From NCBI GenBank assembly GCA_029863245.1, contig JAOTVV010000029.1:1-36327 (forward strand): a stretch of 36,327 nt of DNA, given 5' to 3'. How positions within the stretch are numbered: position 1 is the first letter of the stretch; each line of letters starts with the position of its first letter. Shown here piece by piece: positions 3,512 to 36,327 of this stretch. The stretch comes from Gemmatimonadota bacterium (GTDB lineage: Bacteria; Gemmatimonadota; Gemmatimonadetes; Gemmatimonadales; GWC2-71-9). Below the pieces are notes generated by a model. It worked only from the letters and a program-made list of their open reading frames with translations. It made no database searches and had not been told where the DNA came from. The position numbers and the translations under genes are program-made.

Positions 3512-3575
3512 ACGGTTAGGCGGTTTGGCGGTTTGGCGGTTAGGCGGTTAGGCGGTTAGGCGGTTGGGCGGTTGG
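3512..3575. repeat. GGCGGTTR octamer-repeat array 2
   Basis: About eight tandem octamers, variants GGCGGTTT and GGCGGTTA, followed directly by GGGATCGATAGAGCATCCCT, the same trailer seen after arrays at 11350, 15235 and 15326. It fills the gap 3429-3812; the rest of that gap has no gene I can support. Confidence 0.95.
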
Positions 3576-12106: not shown

Positions 12107-12352
12107 TCATCCCGACGTGGTCTTCTTGATGATGTACTCGAGTTCGGTGACCCCGGGCACACGTCCTTGAAGCACGAGCGTACCATTGATCCCGAGCGCC
12201 GGCGTGTGCATGACTCCCGCCTCAGCGATGGCAACGACGTCTTCCACCTTCGTCACTGCAGCTTCCAACCCGAGGTTCGCCAGCGCGTCCCTTGTCTGTT
12301 GTTCCAGCCTCTTGCAGTTCGCGCAGCCGGGTCCGTAAACATCGATGTTCAT
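12107..12352 (-). CDS. Mini-thioredoxin (redox-active disulfide protein, MTH895/TM0996 type)
   Basis: 81 residues starting MNIDVYGPGCANCKRL. The start at 12352 is chosen because AGGAGGAG ends about 9 nt upstream; the ATG at 12361 would abut it. The active site is C-x-x-C in GCANCK, and the cis-proline loop is HTPALGINGTLV; length and pattern match the small glutaredoxin-like thioredoxins that accompany ArsP-type permeases. Cytoplasmic dithiol protein. It follows the permease gene by 53 nt, so it is probably in the operon ArsR-permease-thioredoxin, and may reduce or hand over metal(loid)-thiol adducts (inference). Confidence 0.9.
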   Translation of the reverse strand: MNIDVYGPGCANCKRLEQQTRDALANLGLEAAVTKVEDVVAIAEAGVMHTPALGINGTLVLQGRVPGVTELEYIIKKTTSG

Positions 12353-12405
12353 TCGATCCATCTCCTCCTGATGTCTCATTTCTACCAGCGACCCAGTTCA
12401 CCCTC

Positions 12406-13722
12406 TCAACCGGACAGCGCTCCGTACACCAACCCCGTGATCGTCGCCATGACCACCGTGAGCCCCACGAACACCAGGGTCTTCTTGGTCCCCATGATGC
12501 TCCGGATCACGAGCATGTTCGGGAGTGACAGCGCGGGTCCGGCAAGCAGCAGCGCCAGCGCCGGGCCCTTCCCCATGCCGTTGCCGAGCAGTCCCTCGAG
12601 GATCGGCACCTCGGTGAGCGTCGCGAAGTACATGAGCGCGCCGGCCACCGACGCAAACAGATTGGCGAACACCGAGTTGCCGCCCACCGCCGCACCGATC
12701 CACGCCGATGGAATAATCCCTTCCTCACCGGGCCGTCCCAGCAGGAGCCCTGCCACGAGCACGCCGGCCAGGAGGAGCGGAAGGATCTGCTTGGCGAATG
12801 TCCACGACGACGAGAACCACTCACGCATCTCGTCGTTCCCGTTGGTGGCGAGCGCAGAAAGGCCTACCACACCGGTGGTGAACGGGACCGCGGGATGGCT
12901 CGAGAACCCGGCGCTTGTTCCCGCTACGGCGATCCCAGGGAGCGCCATGCCGCGCCATGAGACCCCGTACCACGCCATCAGCACCAGCGCGAGTACCAGC
13001 GCGGCCAGCCCGGTGAGCCACCACTTGGCGGTATAGATCGCGTGCCATAGGCCAACCGGCTCGGCTGGCGTACCCCAGTTGGCGAACACGAGAATCGCGA
13101 TCATCGCGGCGAAGAACACGCCGGTCTGCCACAGCGGTCGGGTCGCCCGGTCCTCGGGCAATCCGGCCTGTGCCGCTGCCTTGGTCAGCTCCTCCTTGCG
13201 GAAGATGAGATGCATCGCAATGCCCACGACCACGGCGAACAGCACCGCCCCGACCGCGCGCGCCGTGCCGATCTCCACACCGAGCACGCGGGCCGTGAGG
13301 ATGATCGCCAGCACGTTGATCGCCGGCCCGGAGTAGAGGAACGCGCTCGCTGGACCCAGACCGGCACCGCGCTTGTAGATGCCCGCGAACAGGGGGAGCA
13401 CCGTGCAGGAGCAGACCGCAAGGATGCTGCCCGATACCGACGCCACGCCGTACGCCAGCACCTTGTTCGCCGTGGGCCCGAGGTATTTCATGACGGCGCC
13501 CTGGCTCACGAACACCCCGATGGCACCGGCGATGAAGAACGCCGGGATCAGGCACAGCAGCACGTGTTCGCGCGCGTACCAGCGGACCAGCAGCAGGGAT
13601 TCTGAGAGGGGACCGGGCAGCAGAAGATGGGCGCCGATCCATTCCACTGGGAGGTAGTAGCTCGCGAGGAACCCACCCACCAGCAGAATCGCCGCCCTCC
13701 ACTCCATCCGCCAGAATCCCAT
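12406..13722 (-). CDS. ArsP/DUF318-family permease
   Basis: 438 residues, start ATG at 13722 with GGGAGGG 8 nt upstream. There are eight to ten membrane helices in two homologous halves. The family signature is present in helix 3 as VCSCTVLPLFAGIYKRGAGLGPA and again as PSAFLYSGPAIN-like text, with paired half-motif GNGMGKGPALALLLAGPALS near the C-terminus. The vicinal Cys in CSC is where ArsP-type proteins bind trivalent organoarsenicals. Known members export methylarsenite or roxarsone(III) from the cytoplasm. Immediately downstream of an ArsR repressor and upstream of a mini-thioredoxin, so metal(loid)-induced export is likely; which metal(loid) is open, and the divergent MerB-like gene suggests organometals. 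Confidence 0.9.
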   Translation of the reverse strand: MGFWRMEWRAAILLVGGFLASYYLPVEWIGAHLLLPGPLSESLLLVRWYAREHVLLCLIPAFFIAGAIGVFVSQGAVMKYLGPTANKVLAYGVASVSGSILAVCSCTVLPLFAGIYKRGAGLGPASAFLYSGPAINVLAIILTARVLGVEIGTARAVGAVLFAVVVGIAMHLIFRKEELTKAAAQAGLPEDRATRPLWQTGVFFAAMIAILVFANWGTPAEPVGLWHAIYTAKWWLTGLAALVLALVLMAWYGVSWRGMALPGIAVAGTSAGFSSHPAVPFTTGVVGLSALATNGNDEMREWFSSSWTFAKQILPLLLAGVLVAGLLLGRPGEEGIIPSAWIGAAVGGNSVFANLFASVAGALMYFATLTEVPILEGLLGNGMGKGPALALLLAGPALSLPNMLVIRSIMGTKKTLVFVGLTVVMATITGLVYGALSG

Positions 13723-13756
13723 TCCTGCTGCCCTCCCACTACCGCATAGACCCGGC

Positions 13757-14080
13757 CTAGCGGATGGCCGCGAGCCGCTGACGAGCACCAGCTTTCAAGA
13801 CACCCTCGACGCAGCTATACCAGTTCAGCACGCACGGTACGGTCAGCGAGTAGAACACCTGGTTGCCTCGCTTGTCGTCGACGACGATCCCGGACTCCCG
13901 CAACACAGACAAGTGGCGCGACACCGTGGAGACGTCGGCATCCACCATCTCGGTCAACTCGCAGACGCAGCGCGGACCGTTGGCCAGCTGGTCCACGATG
14001 AACAGACGGGTCGGATGGGCCAATGCCTTCATGACTTTGGCACGCGCCGCGTATCGGGCTTTCGCTTTGGCCGTCTTCAT
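13757..14080 (-). CDS. ArsR/SmtB-family metal-sensing repressor
   Basis: 107 residues. Winged helix about 20-95 with KALAHPTRLFIVDQL, and the metal-binding ELCVC-type site seen here as RCVCELTE (Cys pair), then the recognition helix VSTVSRHLSVLRESGIV. A further Cys pair late in the protein (VPCVLNWYSCVEG) may complete a thiol site for As(III), Hg(II) or Cd(II). First gene of the minus-strand operon with the permease (34 nt gap) and the thioredoxin. A near-perfect inverted repeat touches its start codon, consistent with autorepression. No Shine-Dalgarno is seen before ATG 14080, so a leaderless transcript is possible; an internal Met17 has no better site. Confidence 0.92.
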   Translation of the reverse strand: MKTAKAKARYAARAKVMKALAHPTRLFIVDQLANGPRCVCELTEMVDADVSTVSRHLSVLRESGIVVDDKRGNQVFYSLTVPCVLNWYSCVEGVLKAGARQRLAAIR

Positions 14081-14277: not shown

Positions 14278-14308
14278 AAGCCTTATCGTGTTCTCGGAGG
14301 ATAAGCCA

Positions 14309-15070
14309 ATGCCAGAAGTCGTCAGGATCAAGCTGGCCGGCCACATGGCGCGAGTGCCCGGGTTCGTGTGGCGCCGGGTCGTGGCCGCAAAAGCGAGGAG
14401 CATGGCGTCCACGATCACGTTCATGACTCCGGACCACCACGCGGTTCGCAACTTCGTGGTCTTGGAGATTGCCAACGGTGGGAAGTCTGTCAACCGGCGG
14501 CAGATCGCGGCCGCCTTGGAGCTTCCCACCGATCGAGTGAGCGAGATCCTCGACGAACTGGAGCGACACATGGTGTTCTTGTGGCGCGACGACGCCGGCA
14601 ACGTCCGCTGGGCGTATCCGGTCACCAGCGAAACGACTCCCCACCGGATCGAGTATGCGAACGCGAAGCCAACCTACGGCGCCTGAGGAATCGACGCGCT
14701 CGCGACGCCCTTCGTGCAGGGGCAACTGCAGGGACGTCCACTGACCGGAGCCATTCACACGAGTTGCGCCTGCTGTGGGGAGGACATGTGCATCGACTTC
14801 GACGCGGAGCTGAATTACCACAGCCAGCAGGCAACCGTCCCGCTCATCTCGACCCCTGTGGTCAACATCAAGAAGCTGAACGCGCCCAACATCATCGACG
14901 ACTTCTGACGGAACAGCCTGATCTTCTGGTCAGAAGAACACGCCCGAAACCACCGACTGCTCGTGCCTGCCGTCTACTGGAACCTCCCGGCGGCGGTCTA
15001 CCTGACGCCCATCGTCCAGGGGCCGTTGTTCGGTCTTGCCGATCAGGGTGGCCACCGCCGCAACCACTAA
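14309..15070 (+). CDS. merB: MerB-like organomercurial (alkylmercury) lyase, probable selenoprotein with two selenocysteines (TGA at 14684 and 14906)
   Basis: Read through two in-frame TGA codons the frame gives 253 residues ending at TAA 15070. Start ATG 14309 has GGAGG 8 nt upstream. Residues about 45-115 are the MerB winged helix (VNRRQIAAALELPTDRVSEI, WAYPVTSETTPHRI). MerB cleaves C-Hg bonds with two Cys and one Asp (Cys96, Cys159, Asp99 in the R831b enzyme). Here TGA at codon 126 falls in YGA-x-GIDALATPF, exactly where the family has C-A-x-D-x-L, with Asp129 kept. TGA at codon 200 falls in DDF-x-RNSLIFWSEEH, where the family has the second Cys before a FF-S-E motif. The third, structural Cys (HTSCACCGED) is ordinary TGC. 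Both TGAs are followed by SECIS-like hairpins. Alternative: a pseudogene with two stops, less likely given their positions and the intact frame. Confidence 0.82.
14704..14738 (+). promoter_or_regulatory. SECIS-like hairpin 1 (for TGA 14684-14686)
   Basis: GACG-CCC pairs with GGG-(A)-CGTC, and above an internal bulge TTCG the apical stem TGCAG/CTGCA closes the 6-base loop GGGCAA. The loop begins 33 nt after the TGA. Published bacterial SECIS models ask for a loop 16-37 nt downstream with G in its first two positions; this fits. Confidence 0.65.
14919..14940 (+). promoter_or_regulatory. SECIS-like hairpin 2 (for TGA 14906-14908)
   Basis: TCTTCT (14922-14927) and AGAAGA (14932-14937) form a perfect 6-bp stem with loop GGTC, extended by TG/CA below one A-A mismatch. 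The loop begins 19 nt after the TGA. GGUC is also the core of the apical loop in the E. coli fdhF SECIS. Confidence 0.7.
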
Positions 15071-15171: not shown

Positions 15172-15235
15172 TGGCGGTTGAGCGGTTAGGCGGTTGAGCT
15201 AGGCGGTTAGGCGGTTGAGCGGTTAGGCGGTTGGG
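15172..15235. repeat. Octamer-repeat array 5
   Basis: Seven units of GGCGGTTG/GGCGGTTA with AGCGGTTA variants, ending in the GGGATCGATCGAGCATCCCT trailer. Together with array 6 and two promoter-like modules it fills the gap 15071-15409. Confidence 0.95.
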
Positions 15236-15289
15236 ATCGATCGAGCATCCCTCGCGCTCTTTCGGTACTCGGCCGGCCGAGCGTATGAT
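15236..15289 (+). promoter_or_regulatory. Promoter-like module, first of two tandem copies
   Basis: CTCTTTCGGTACTCGG, completing the palindrome TCGGCCGGCCGA, then GCG and TATGAT (15284-15289, -10-like). It is followed at once by another octamer array, so the array-plus-module unit has been duplicated here. Confidence 0.5.
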
Positions 15290-15290
15290 A

Positions 15291-15326
15291 CAGGCGGTTG
15301 AGCGGTTAGGCGGTTAGGCGGTTGGG
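15291..15326. repeat. Octamer-repeat array 6
   Basis: Four tandem octamers between the two copies of the promoter-like module. Confidence 0.9.
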
Positions 15327-15380
15327 ATCGATCGAGCATCCCTCGGGCTCTTTCGGTACTCGGCGCGCCGAGCGCATGAT
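15327..15380 (+). promoter_or_regulatory. Promoter-like module, second tandem copy, upstream of the methyltransferase
   Basis: Nearly identical to 15236-15289: CTCTTTCGGTACTCGG, palindrome TCGGCGCGCCGA, GCG, CATGAT (15375-15380). The expected transcription start is about 20 nt before ATG 15410, as for the module at 3118-3151. Confidence 0.55.
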
Positions 15381-31904: not shown

Positions 31905-32771
31905 TCAACTCGGGAAACCAGTCATGAAGATTCCCTCCCATTCACGAATCGCGCCCCAATGATCGCCACGTCCCTCAAACTCCAATGCCCTTGCCGCCGC
32001 GGCTCCGTCATGGCTGAGGCATCCTAGGAGTCGACTCCGCTCGTCCTGCGATAGAGGCCTGTCTATCCTCGACTCGCCGTATACAGGATCCGACATCGGC
32101 ACGGTCACATGAACCGGCAGTTGCTGAAGTGCAATCGCCACCCCGTGCTGGTAGGTGGGGATCAGCCTTCTATCGAAGATGTCCACGCAGATCAGTTCGA
32201 TGTGAAATGACCTCAAGAGATCGAGGTTATTTCGGCTCCAATGTTTTACCATTTTGATCACTGGCTTGAGCATGCCTTTCGATGCCGCATTCGCACGAGT
32301 CAAGATCTCCGCGTGCGCCTTCGGATCGGTTGCGAGCCAGTGATTGCCATCCACGTCCGGTATCCAATATCCGTTCGGCACCCGTAACCAAGCGGGGACT
32401 AGGTCAAACCCGAAGCTGATCCCCGGTGCGTGCACGTTTACAGACCGCGACTGCCGCTGTACTCTCGCCCCCCTCACAGCCTGTACTACTGCGTTCTCAA
32501 TCTCTTGAAGGGCCTGTCCGGGTAGTACACCGCTCCCATCTACCGCCAACTCGGTTGGTCTGTCATTCCGAACCAGGAAAACATCAATGTCGTTGAGAGG
32601 ATCAATCTTCGTGTAGCGCGAATAGGAACCCGTTAGGAACGAGCTCGGAACGTACAGGTAACTCGCGATCGCTGCGCGGAGCTGTTCTTGTGCTGAGGCC
32701 GCCTCCTTCTGTCGACTATCTGGCAGTTCCAAGCTGCTCTTGAACTCGCGAAACGCTTCGCCAACGGTCAT
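31905..32771 (-). CDS. CD-NTase-like nucleotidyltransferase (second cyclase-type enzyme)
   Basis: 288 residues from ATG 32771; a TTG at 32786 has the better Shine-Dalgarno (AGGGA) and would add five residues. Polymerase-beta-type active site: FLTGSYSRYT (Gly48-Ser49), DID (61, 63) and the third acid in FGFDLVPAW (123). The C-terminal helical part (GMLKPVIKMVKHWSRNN) is the OAS/CD-NTase C-domain pattern, and WLATDPKAHAEILTRANAAS the substrate-side helix. These enzymes make cyclic or linear oligonucleotide signals that switch on an effector in anti-phage defence. It lies downstream of the MfnB-like gene and next to a full CBASS set, so it may be a second signalling branch. The nucleotide product cannot be told from sequence. 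Confidence 0.85.
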   Translation of the reverse strand: MTVGEAFREFKSSLELPDSRQKEAASAQEQLRAAIASYLYVPSSFLTGSYSRYTKIDPLNDIDVFLVRNDRPTELAVDGSGVLPGQALQEIENAVVQAVRGARVQRQSRSVNVHAPGISFGFDLVPAWLRVPNGYWIPDVDGNHWLATDPKAHAEILTRANAASKGMLKPVIKMVKHWSRNNLDLLRSFHIELICVDIFDRRLIPTYQHGVAIALQQLPVHVTVPMSDPVYGESRIDRPLSQDERSRLLGCLSHDGAAAARALEFEGRGDHWGAIREWEGIFMTGFPS

Positions 32772-32919
32772 AGCAGGATCAGGCAACGCGGTATCCCTGA
32801 CATAGCCCGGTAAGAAGCGCGGACGGATGGTCGAAGCGCACGGTCTCCGAATTGGTTACTCGATACAGAGACCGCCGACCCGTCGAGCCTGCGAAGGCTT
32901 CCGCTCGCTGGGGAGACAC

Positions 32920-34934: not shown

Positions 34935-35981
34935 CTAGCCCCCGTGGTACCTCGTAGGCAGAGTAGGGATGACTGCAGCTCCACCGATCACGCGGCCCTC
35001 CGGACTGATCTTGGTCTGTCCGGGTTGATGCTCCTGACCCTCTCTCAGCACCGCCTCCCGTACGTCGTCTTGCGACGGCCACCGGCTTCCGAAGACCTTC
35101 TCCCACTCGACCACGGCATCTTCCTCGGATTCGGCGGCAAGTGCTCTTTCTGCCGCCCTCCGAGCCTCTCGCACTCGCCGCATGAACGTCTCGAACTCCT
35201 CGCGAGACCAGCCACGCGTGATGTACTTGTCCGTGATCTGCGGGTCGCGGATTCGCGGCGCCTCTTTGCCGTTGTCCATCAGATCTGCGTACTTGTCGGC
35301 GACGTACGCAAACAGGTCGTGGACGTTCTCGGCGCGAGACCGGCGAGTCAATGTGATCGTGCCATCCTCGACACCATATAGCAGCATCACCTCAAGGACA
35401 TAGCTCTTGGGACGGCGGCGGATCATGTGTTCGTCTCGCCATACTTTGAACAACTTCACGAGGGGAACGACCTTTTCGCCGTGCTCTCCGTTCGTTGTAC
35501 TCAGCCGCTTCGCATAGCCAAGAGGATCCGAGGCAACCCACTCCTGTTGCGGCCGATCAGGAACCAACAACGGTTTGTCGACACCGTCCGGTGTGATCGA
35601 CGGCACGATATCGAGGTACAGATGGTCATCGGGCAAATGAAGCCGGACAGACCGCCTCTGGCCTTTGACATCAATCTCCCCAGCTCCCGGATACTCCTTG
35701 AGAACGCGGTGGACCTCAAGCAGGACGGCGTTCGGTGTCCGGTCCTCTTGGTCATCGGGTAGGAATAGAAGCGTGTCGACGTCAGGAATGAGCTCGATGG
35801 CGGTCTTGCGACCGTAGGAACCCGAAAGTAGGGTGTGGGGGGTTCTTGTGGCAAACTCATGGTCCTTCAGCCAATCGCGGACTTCACCCACACGTCTAGA
35901 GGCAAGTCTTACACGGTCTTCCGGCGGGTTGATCTTCGTGATCAACGCATCGAAATGGTGGCGCATGTTGGGCACAGTCAT
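34935..35981 (-). CDS. CD-NTase (CBASS cyclase)
   Basis: 348 residues from ATG 35981; the Shine-Dalgarno GAGGAG abuts that ATG, so GTG 35975 (6 nt away) may be the real start. Active site: TLLSGSYGRKT (Gly54-Ser55), IPDVDTL (Asp67, Asp69) and LYLDIVPSI (Asp124), all three metal ligands present. LVKLFKVWRDEHMIRRRPKS is the C-domain helix that contacts the acceptor nucleotide. It makes the cyclic oligonucleotide alarm signal of CBASS. The C-terminal segment ends TLPTRYHGG, a glycine-ended tail like those linked by Cap2 to targets. It begins 10 bases after the upstream regulator gene and sits directly before the E2 gene. Confidence 0.9.
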   Translation of the reverse strand: MTVPNMRHHFDALITKINPPEDRVRLASRRVGEVRDWLKDHEFATRTPHTLLSGSYGRKTAIELIPDVDTLLFLPDDQEDRTPNAVLLEVHRVLKEYPGAGEIDVKGQRRSVRLHLPDDHLYLDIVPSITPDGVDKPLLVPDRPQQEWVASDPLGYAKRLSTTNGEHGEKVVPLVKLFKVWRDEHMIRRRPKSYVLEVMLLYGVEDGTITLTRRSRAENVHDLFAYVADKYADLMDNGKEAPRIRDPQITDKYITRGWSREEFETFMRRVREARRAAERALAAESEEDAVVEWEKVFGSRWPSQDDVREAVLREGQEHQPGQTKISPEGRVIGGAAVIPTLPTRYHGG

Positions 35982-35991
35982 CTCCTCATAC

Positions 35992-36327
35992 CTACTGCAG
36001 CGCAGCGTAGACGTACTCACGCCCGCCGCCCTCCAGCGGCTGTTCTGCCACTCGCCGTGCGAGTGCGCTCTTCACTAGTGCGGCAAGGCGGTTTGTCGCG
36101 GCTTGAGTGCTATTTAGCTTGAGATCAGCCCTGACCTCACTTGCGGTCGCGATGCCGCGTGCAGCCAGAGCGGTGAACGTCTGCGCCACTGACGGCTCCA
36201 CACGCCCTACAAGGCGTGACTCCGGCGGCTCCACCGCCCGTTCAACTGTGACGAGTCCCTCGCCTTGGAGCATCACCTCGACGTTGTACCGGCTGCTACC
36301 GAGGCCCGATAGCACGATGTAGCGGTC
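35992..36327 (-). CDS. Winged-helix regulator (partial; starts beyond the right edge)
   Basis: The frame is open to the window edge, so the N-terminus is missing; 111 residues are visible. RYIVLSGLGSSRYNVEVMLQ with EGLVTVERAV resembles the end of a STAS/DUF4325-like domain. From about residue 50, AQTFTALAARGIATASEVRA, then QAATNRLAALVKSALARRV and GREYVYAAL form a winged helix. Ten bases separate it from the CD-NTase, so it is first in the visible operon and may control it. The family call is tentative. Confidence 0.6.
   Translation of the reverse strand, partial: DRYIVLSGLGSSRYNVEVMLQGEGLVTVERAVEPPESRLVGRVEPSVAQTFTALAARGIATASEVRADLKLNSTQAATNRLAALVKSALARRVAEQPLEGGGREYVYAALQ

Follow-up and report, generated by a model that had tools for sequence, protein, structure and literature searches.

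A MerB-family gene with in-frame TGA at both catalytic cysteine codons: a predicted double-selenocysteine enzyme

Introduction

MerB is the textbook methylmercury-breaking enzyme, and the chemistry between mercury and selenium is an old theme of mercury toxicology. According to passages of PMC4525700, one of the MerB cysteines Cys96 and Cys159 binds mercury and the other hands a proton to Asp99, which protonates the leaving group. Here, we describe a predicted member of the MerB family in which both of these cysteine codons are TGA and may be read as selenocysteine (Sec). The gene is located on contig JAOTVV010000029.1 (C62) of a Gemmatimonadota bacterium (assembly GCA_029863245.1); this stretch of 36,327 nt is referred to as the window.

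Several described families are close to this gene. SaoL appears in a table of PMC13188914 as a MerB-like selenoprotein family with one Sec in a CU motif, and a table of PMC9312934 lists it without a motif. Bacterial double selenoproteins named in passages of PMC13188914 include MbdU, MduS, and arsenite methyltransferase fusions. A table of PMC7435645 names an 'Organic mercuric lyase MerB2' as a predicted selenoprotein and gives no further detail; we could not match this entry to the family described here, to which it might be related. An earlier note on this DNA remarked that no characterized double-Sec MerB was known to its author, and the excerpts of the open-licence literature that we searched likewise describe none.

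Results

A MerB-like frame with two in-frame TGA codons

The window constitutes the whole of contig C62, one of the 75 contigs of a 3.68-Mb assembly with a completeness of 93.94% and a contamination of 0.03%. The frame at positions 14309-15070 of the forward strand (Table 1) runs from ATG to TAA and contains exactly two in-frame TGA codons and no inner TAA or TAG, in agreement with the claim of the earlier note that the frame is interrupted solely by two TGA codons. In the alignment of the family profile to the R831b MerB (PDB 1s6l), codons 126 and 200 correspond to Cys96 and Cys159, respectively, Asp129 to Asp99, and Cys153 to Cys117. Thus, from the catalytic triad Cys96/Asp99/Cys159 the aspartate is retained and both cysteine positions are TGA, predicted to encode Sec; the profile alignment bears out what had been proposed for the two TGA codons, Asp99, and the third cysteine. 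The observation of a MerB-like frame with TGA at both catalytic Cys positions is therefore confirmed.

When TGA is read as a residue, the protein scores 31.7 bits against the Pfam family MerB (PF03243), above the gathering cut-off of 27. Its predicted structure has the MerB fold and matches MerB crystal structures, the best fold match being the mercury-bound MerB2. The cut-offs of the NCBIfam MerB models are not reached (NF009710, 34.2 bits vs 193; NF033555, 33 vs 200), the best NCBIfam match of the window protein is SaoL (NF040728), also below its cut-off (44.9 bits vs 140), and a PDB search with the single window sequence gave no match. Based on the modeled fold and the Pfam assignment, we file the gene under a predicted double-Sec branch of MerB and not under SaoL.

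Recurrence of both TGA positions across bacteria

A scan of genome contigs identified five loci (L024-L028), of which L025 is TGT/TGA at the two sites and the other four are TGA/TGA; L024 has a third TGA at the end of homology, and selA scores above its cut-off in all five genomes. Among the 396 genomes searched in the phylum of L027, nine carry the gene at 10 places: seven have two TGA codons, two are partial with one TGA, and one is a Cys/Cys relative of 26% identity (L047 in genome G473). Two of the 82 genomes searched in the phylum of L024 have the gene, both as TGA/TGA. Altogether, the DNA of both sites can be read in 13 loci, and 12 of them are TGA/TGA, with L025 as the exception at site 1. 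Site 2 is TGA in all 13 loci, as well as in the partial loci L045, which appears rearranged upstream, and L046, which is ended by a contig edge. No TAA or TAG occurs inside the aligned frame in any of the 13 loci. This recurrence of the TGA pair, in homologues of the kind that the earlier note had proposed to look for, exceeds chance. One genome (G726) holds a pair of distant copies, L040 and L048, both TGA/TGA, which are 41 and 63% identical to the protein of L027.

Protein relatives numbered 45 in a single-sequence search and 1136 in a profile search at E 1e-10 or better; we classified 132 distinct rows, comprising the 45-protein search and the best 120 of the 1136. Of these rows, 127 are compatible with TGA at one or both sites: 70 stop right before site 1, 46 (largely from JGI) carry Trp in both places, another 10 reach from a Cys at site 1 to the residue right before site 2, and one has Trp at site 1 and stops right before site 2, so that 81 of the 132 end at a predicted Sec codon. 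Since the Trp residues fall exactly on both predicted Sec codons, they most likely represent TGA under another translation table, as judged from protein rows. No Cys/Cys row was found among the 132 classified of the 1136. A search of plasmid and viral collections returned two Cys-type MerB3 plasmid matches (29.6% identity) and no viral relative.

An in-frame TGA shared by homologues, with Cys at that position in others, is one criterion for bacterial selenoproteins, and such Cys-type relatives are available for each site. Cys is found at site 1 in L025 and in ten protein rows, at site 2 in the rows P0062 and P0065, and at both sites in MerB3 and L047. A tree built with both sites masked requires at least three switches between predicted Sec and Cys at site 1; the tree comes from a quick method with 21 of 44 inner branches open, and the count treats Trp rows as Sec and excludes P0015.

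Purifying selection acts on the whole frame. For nine pairs of sequences, dN/dS ranges within 0.10-0.36 before site 1 (one pair was not computable), 0.10-0.53 between the sites, and 0.08-0.33 past site 2; in each segment the highest value comes from a comparison that includes the window sequence, in which synonymous sites are nearly saturated. The low dN/dS expected across both TGA codons was thus observed, with values below 0.6 in every computable comparison on both sides of both codons.

Synonymous constraint and candidate SECIS hairpins

In the codon alignment of the 13 loci, codons +7 to +13 past site 1 show the same codon in 362 of 431 same-residue pairs (171.6 expected from the family codon usage), and codons +4 to +11 past site 2 in 408 of 475 (231.1 expected), compared to 3118 of 7370 elsewhere in the gene (2859.9 expected). 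Each of the 14 top-ranked eight-codon sliding windows overlaps one or the other of these stretches, which are the gene's most synonymously constrained parts. All 13 loci use TCA for the Ser that follows site 2, and the stretch of hairpin 2 is nearly invariant, synonymous positions included.

Both stretches may fold into hairpins. The first, GCCCTT-CGTGC-AAGGGC, has its loop 26 nt past the first TGA (27 in L041); the second, TTCTTCT-GGTC-AGAAGAA, has its loop 19 nt past the second TGA. The bacterial model of the Sec insertion sequence (SECIS), as given in passages of PMC13188914, has a loop of 3-9 nt with G in its first two positions, located 16-37 nt away, a stem of 4-16 bp, and a folding energy of -7.5 kcal/mol or lower. 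At site 1, all 12 Sec-type loci show the geometry of this model, and so do all 15 loci at site 2. The 54-nt folds starting from each TGA are all below -7.5, the hairpin not always being included. At site 1, at most 1.5% of 1000 synonymous shuffles per locus reach the observed energy in 9 of 12 Sec-type loci (not in L024, L048, and L050). A single compensatory change at this site, C-G to U-A in L043, pairs a Pro-to-Ser replacement with a synonymous change and is equalled by 34 of 500 shuffles; site 2 shows no covariation. Hairpin 1 is lost in L025, the locus with Cys at site 1. Rfam gave no match on the window at the gathering score. Many of the folding energies are weak, so that the two predicted SECIS elements are supported by synonymous constraint and by their position, and not by energy.

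Selenocysteine machinery

The genome of the window encodes the components for Sec insertion that the earlier note had proposed to search for: selA (510.8 bits), selB (349.5), and selD (366.4), all above their cut-offs, and tRNA-Sec (75.7 bits vs a gathering score of 47), which ARAGORN also reports as tRNA-SeC with anticodon tca. The selD gene has one in-frame TGA (L019, positions 1531-1533) in the context G-A-G-TGA-A-C-K, the SelD catalytic site, and therefore probably encodes a selenoprotein itself.

In genome G602 the predicted double-Sec merB gene is located near selA, selD, and selB in the same orientation (539.5, 351, and 284.5 bits, exceeding the cut-offs of TIGR00474, TIGR00476, and TIGR00475, respectively). 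One 98-aa open reading frame (ORF) without an NCBIfam family lies between the gene and selA, and a second selA is found elsewhere in this genome. The selA-selD-selB cluster occupies positions 1746-6947 of L055. In the SelD encoded there, Cys replaces Sec, and an AhpD-like domain is found at the C-terminus (TIGR00778, 39.8 bits vs 27.8).

Genomic neighborhood and contig placement

The predicted features of the gene and its divergent neighbors are collected in Table 1. The ArsP_1-type permease scores 102.6 bits against the NCBIfam model SaoE, whose cut-off is 325.

Table 1. Coordinates of the gene, its predicted elements, and its divergent neighbors in the window
Feature	Position	Strand	Basis or remark
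Predicted double-Sec MerB-family gene	14309..15070	+	253 codons + TAA; two-TGA frame, Pfam MerB, model fold
Shine-Dalgarno-like CGGAGG	14295..14300	+	8 bases 5' of ATG; predicted from sequence
TGA 1, predicted Sec codon 126	14684..14686	+	aligns with Cys96 of R831b MerB; context A-TGA-G
GAC (Asp129)	14693..14695	+	aligns with catalytic Asp99; invariant in the 33-row alignment
Hairpin 1, GCCCTT-CGTGC-AGGGGC, predicted SECIS for codon 126	14707..14723	+	loop 26 nt past TGA
Codons 153-156 (C-A-C-C)	14765..14776	+	Cys153 aligns with MerB Cys117; Cys156 extra
TGA 2, predicted Sec codon 200	14906..14908	+	aligns with Cys159; context F-TGA-R
Hairpin 2, TCTTCT-GGTC-AGAAGA, predicted SECIS for codon 200	14922..14937	+	loop 19 nt past TGA
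ArsR/SmtB-family metalloregulator	13757..14080	-	NF033788, 88 bits vs 55; PF01022
ArsP_1-type permease	12406..13788	-	PF03773, 251.7 bits; residues 12409-13710 submitted
MTH895/ArsE-family thioredoxin-like protein	12107..12379	-	TIGR00412, 87.8 bits vs 62; PF13192

The contig probably belongs to the genome of the window as an accessory region. A kinase encoded on it has kin in 61 of 61 same-family genomes searched, but it belongs to a large paralogous family. Within the assembly, a 26-base repeat, GGTTGGGATCGATCGAGCATCCCTCG, is confined to four places on this contig and therefore cannot link it to other contigs. This repeat and short tandem repeats of the GCGGTTGAGCGGTTAG type are noted at positions 15180-15345, and also at 3570 and 11346. 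Two candidate CD-NTase-like nucleotidyltransferases, judged by eye, are located at positions 31905-32786 and 34935-36020 of the reverse strand.

Discussion

We propose, with a probability of about 0.72, that the gene encodes a MerB-family protein in which both TGA codons are read as Sec, likely a carbon-mercury lyase with a Sec/Sec/Asp triad. The earlier note had suggested a probable double-Sec MerB-like enzyme, and this suggestion is supported by the sel genes, the homologues with TGA, the Cys-type relatives, and the low dN/dS. We conclude that these genes form a real branch of MerB with two predicted Sec residues. SelB would deliver Sec-tRNA(Sec) to each UGA, helped by the hairpin just downstream, and the Sec/Sec/Asp triad would replace Cys/Cys/Asp in the predicted lyase. 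With Sec at both positions, the MerB route may run with more nucleophilic and more acidic selenols. Selenolates hold Hg(II) more tightly than thiolates, and for this reason the problem of Hg(II) release in the absence of MerA would apply here more strongly. For MerB itself, a passage of PMC8261052 describes this release without MerA as unexplained.

A number of observations weigh against this proposal. With regard to the hairpins, few of the upper stems, taken in isolation, are as stable as -7.5 kcal/mol (5 of 13 for site 1, 3 of 15 for site 2), and the same geometry is found, at -4 kcal/mol, for 714 of 2808 other codons of these genes. When the 54 nt are folded to the lowest energy, hairpin 1 forms for 6 of 12 Sec-type loci (L024, L026, L027, L040, L041, and L042), the window's own fold being without it, and hairpin 2 for 12 of 15 (absent in L028, L043, and L044). 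At site 2, at most 1.6% of shuffles reach the observed energy in only 3 of 13 loci, the window among them; the low energy of the window at this site is due to a competing hairpin, CTGATC-TTCT-GGTCAG, which is more stable in a 24-nt fold. Folding is thus not decisive for SECIS.

Other points concern distribution and context. In a search of 395 genomes from the phylum of the window, the gene turned up in the window's own genome only, and the composition of its contig is slightly atypical: the mean tetranucleotide correlation with twelve 20-kb stretches of the genome is 0.63, compared to 0.68 among these stretches and 0.51 with loci of other genomes. In the phylum of L027, selA is present in seven of eight Sec-type carriers (G818 left out); since 252 of the 396 genomes have selA, its presence is compatible with Sec insertion, shows no clear enrichment, and is not a discriminating test. 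In the carrier G503, where the gene copy is located on a 9.7-kb contig, no selA was found. Three close relatives among the 132 protein rows may be non-Sec or inactive versions: in P0062 and P0065, site 1 is Ser and site 2 is Cys, and P0015 has Gly and Leu. When the ORFs of 15 loci were clustered, no neighbor proved common to at least three loci; the clusters contained the gene itself, overlapping frames, and a 99-aa ORF next to the gene in L055, which was joined to a cluster of this kind. MerA has a Cys pair at its C-terminus; the best match to the MerA model in the genome of the window lacks this pair, and at 384.3 bits (cut-off 454.45) no MerA is found above cut-off. With no MerA above cut-off and no conserved neighborhood, nothing beyond homology points to mercury.

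In an alternative that we consider unlikely, a double-Sec protein of MerB fold acts on another metal or metalloid compound, such as organic arsenic or tin, or has a metal-binding or redox role. The absence of MerA above cut-off agrees with it, as does the best NCBIfam match, which for P0001 and all 33 alignment members (E up to 0.001) is SaoL, a MerB-like organometallic lyase. In the window, moreover, genes for an ArsR/SmtB regulator, an ArsP_1 permease, and an ArsE-like thioredoxin lie divergently to it; however, these Ars-type neighbors do not recur at other loci, the mercury-binding residues Cys96, Asp99, and Cys159 are conserved in type, and the top match in fold is a mercury-bound protein.

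Two further explanations dispense with Sec altogether. That the gene is decaying, or that its functional product comprises the first 125 residues only and the TGA codons are real stops, is very improbable: 12 of 13 loci share the two TGA codons and lack TAA and TAG, purifying selection extends past both of them and synonymous constraint lies right after both, and catalytic residues are located at and past the first TGA. Gene callers nevertheless stop at site 1 in 70 of 132 protein rows, and the apparent upstream rearrangement of L045 would fit decay. Of the findings that the earlier note had named as refuting a double-Sec enzyme, missing sel genes and a lack of TGA homologues were not encountered, whereas two of the 132 rows (P0041 and P0047) seem to be frameshifted near site 1. 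More improbable still is the reading of TGA as Trp in the window gene and its relatives, in spite of Trp at both sites in 46 of 132 database rows. TGA ends 11 of 18 chosen window genes, i.e., it is also an ordinary stop, which is a strong argument against Trp; in addition, the Sec machinery is present, and the sites are those of two metal-binding cysteines, at which relatives carry Cys.

The double-Sec MerB proposal may be extended, tentatively and at somewhat less than even odds, to a widespread unnamed branch with one SECIS per Sec, which would provide MerA-independent, selenium-based methylmercury breakdown in environmental bacteria. Surveys of merB would miss such a route because most database copies end at the first or second predicted Sec codon or carry Trp. 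If real, selenium-based breakdown of organic mercury is probably hidden by gene callers that shorten these genes, and annotation-based surveys would miss many of its copies, given 1136 relatives at E 1e-10 and 81 shortened rows among the 132 inspected. The natural Sec/Sec, Cys/Sec, Ser/Cys, and Cys/Cys relatives make the role of selenium in C-Hg cleavage testable.

Compared to the characterized MerB proteins (R831b, PDB 1s6l and 3f0o; MerB2, 5c17), the window gene has TGA at both catalytic Cys codons, and its protein model shows 14-19% structural identity to the MerB crystal structures. It also differs from the R831b enzyme by the lack of Cys160, the position of which is Arg in the window gene, and by an extra Cys156, which is invariant in the 33-row alignment. 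The MerB3 proteins of Gram-positive plasmids (WP_001073002.1; 29.6% identity) share with it a CxxC past site 1 and a SEEH past site 2, whereas they have Cys at both sites. SaoL (NF040728), the best NCBIfam match, is likewise a predicted selenoprotein of the MerB superfamily; however, relative to SaoL as described in the review table, the window gene has two Sec codons, neither of which adjoins a Cys. With the double selenoproteins named in the passages cited above it shares the presence of at least two Sec residues in one protein, several of those families being linked by name to metals or metalloids. Those families bear other names, and the passages list no MerB in which both catalytic positions are Sec, the arrangement predicted for the gene described here.
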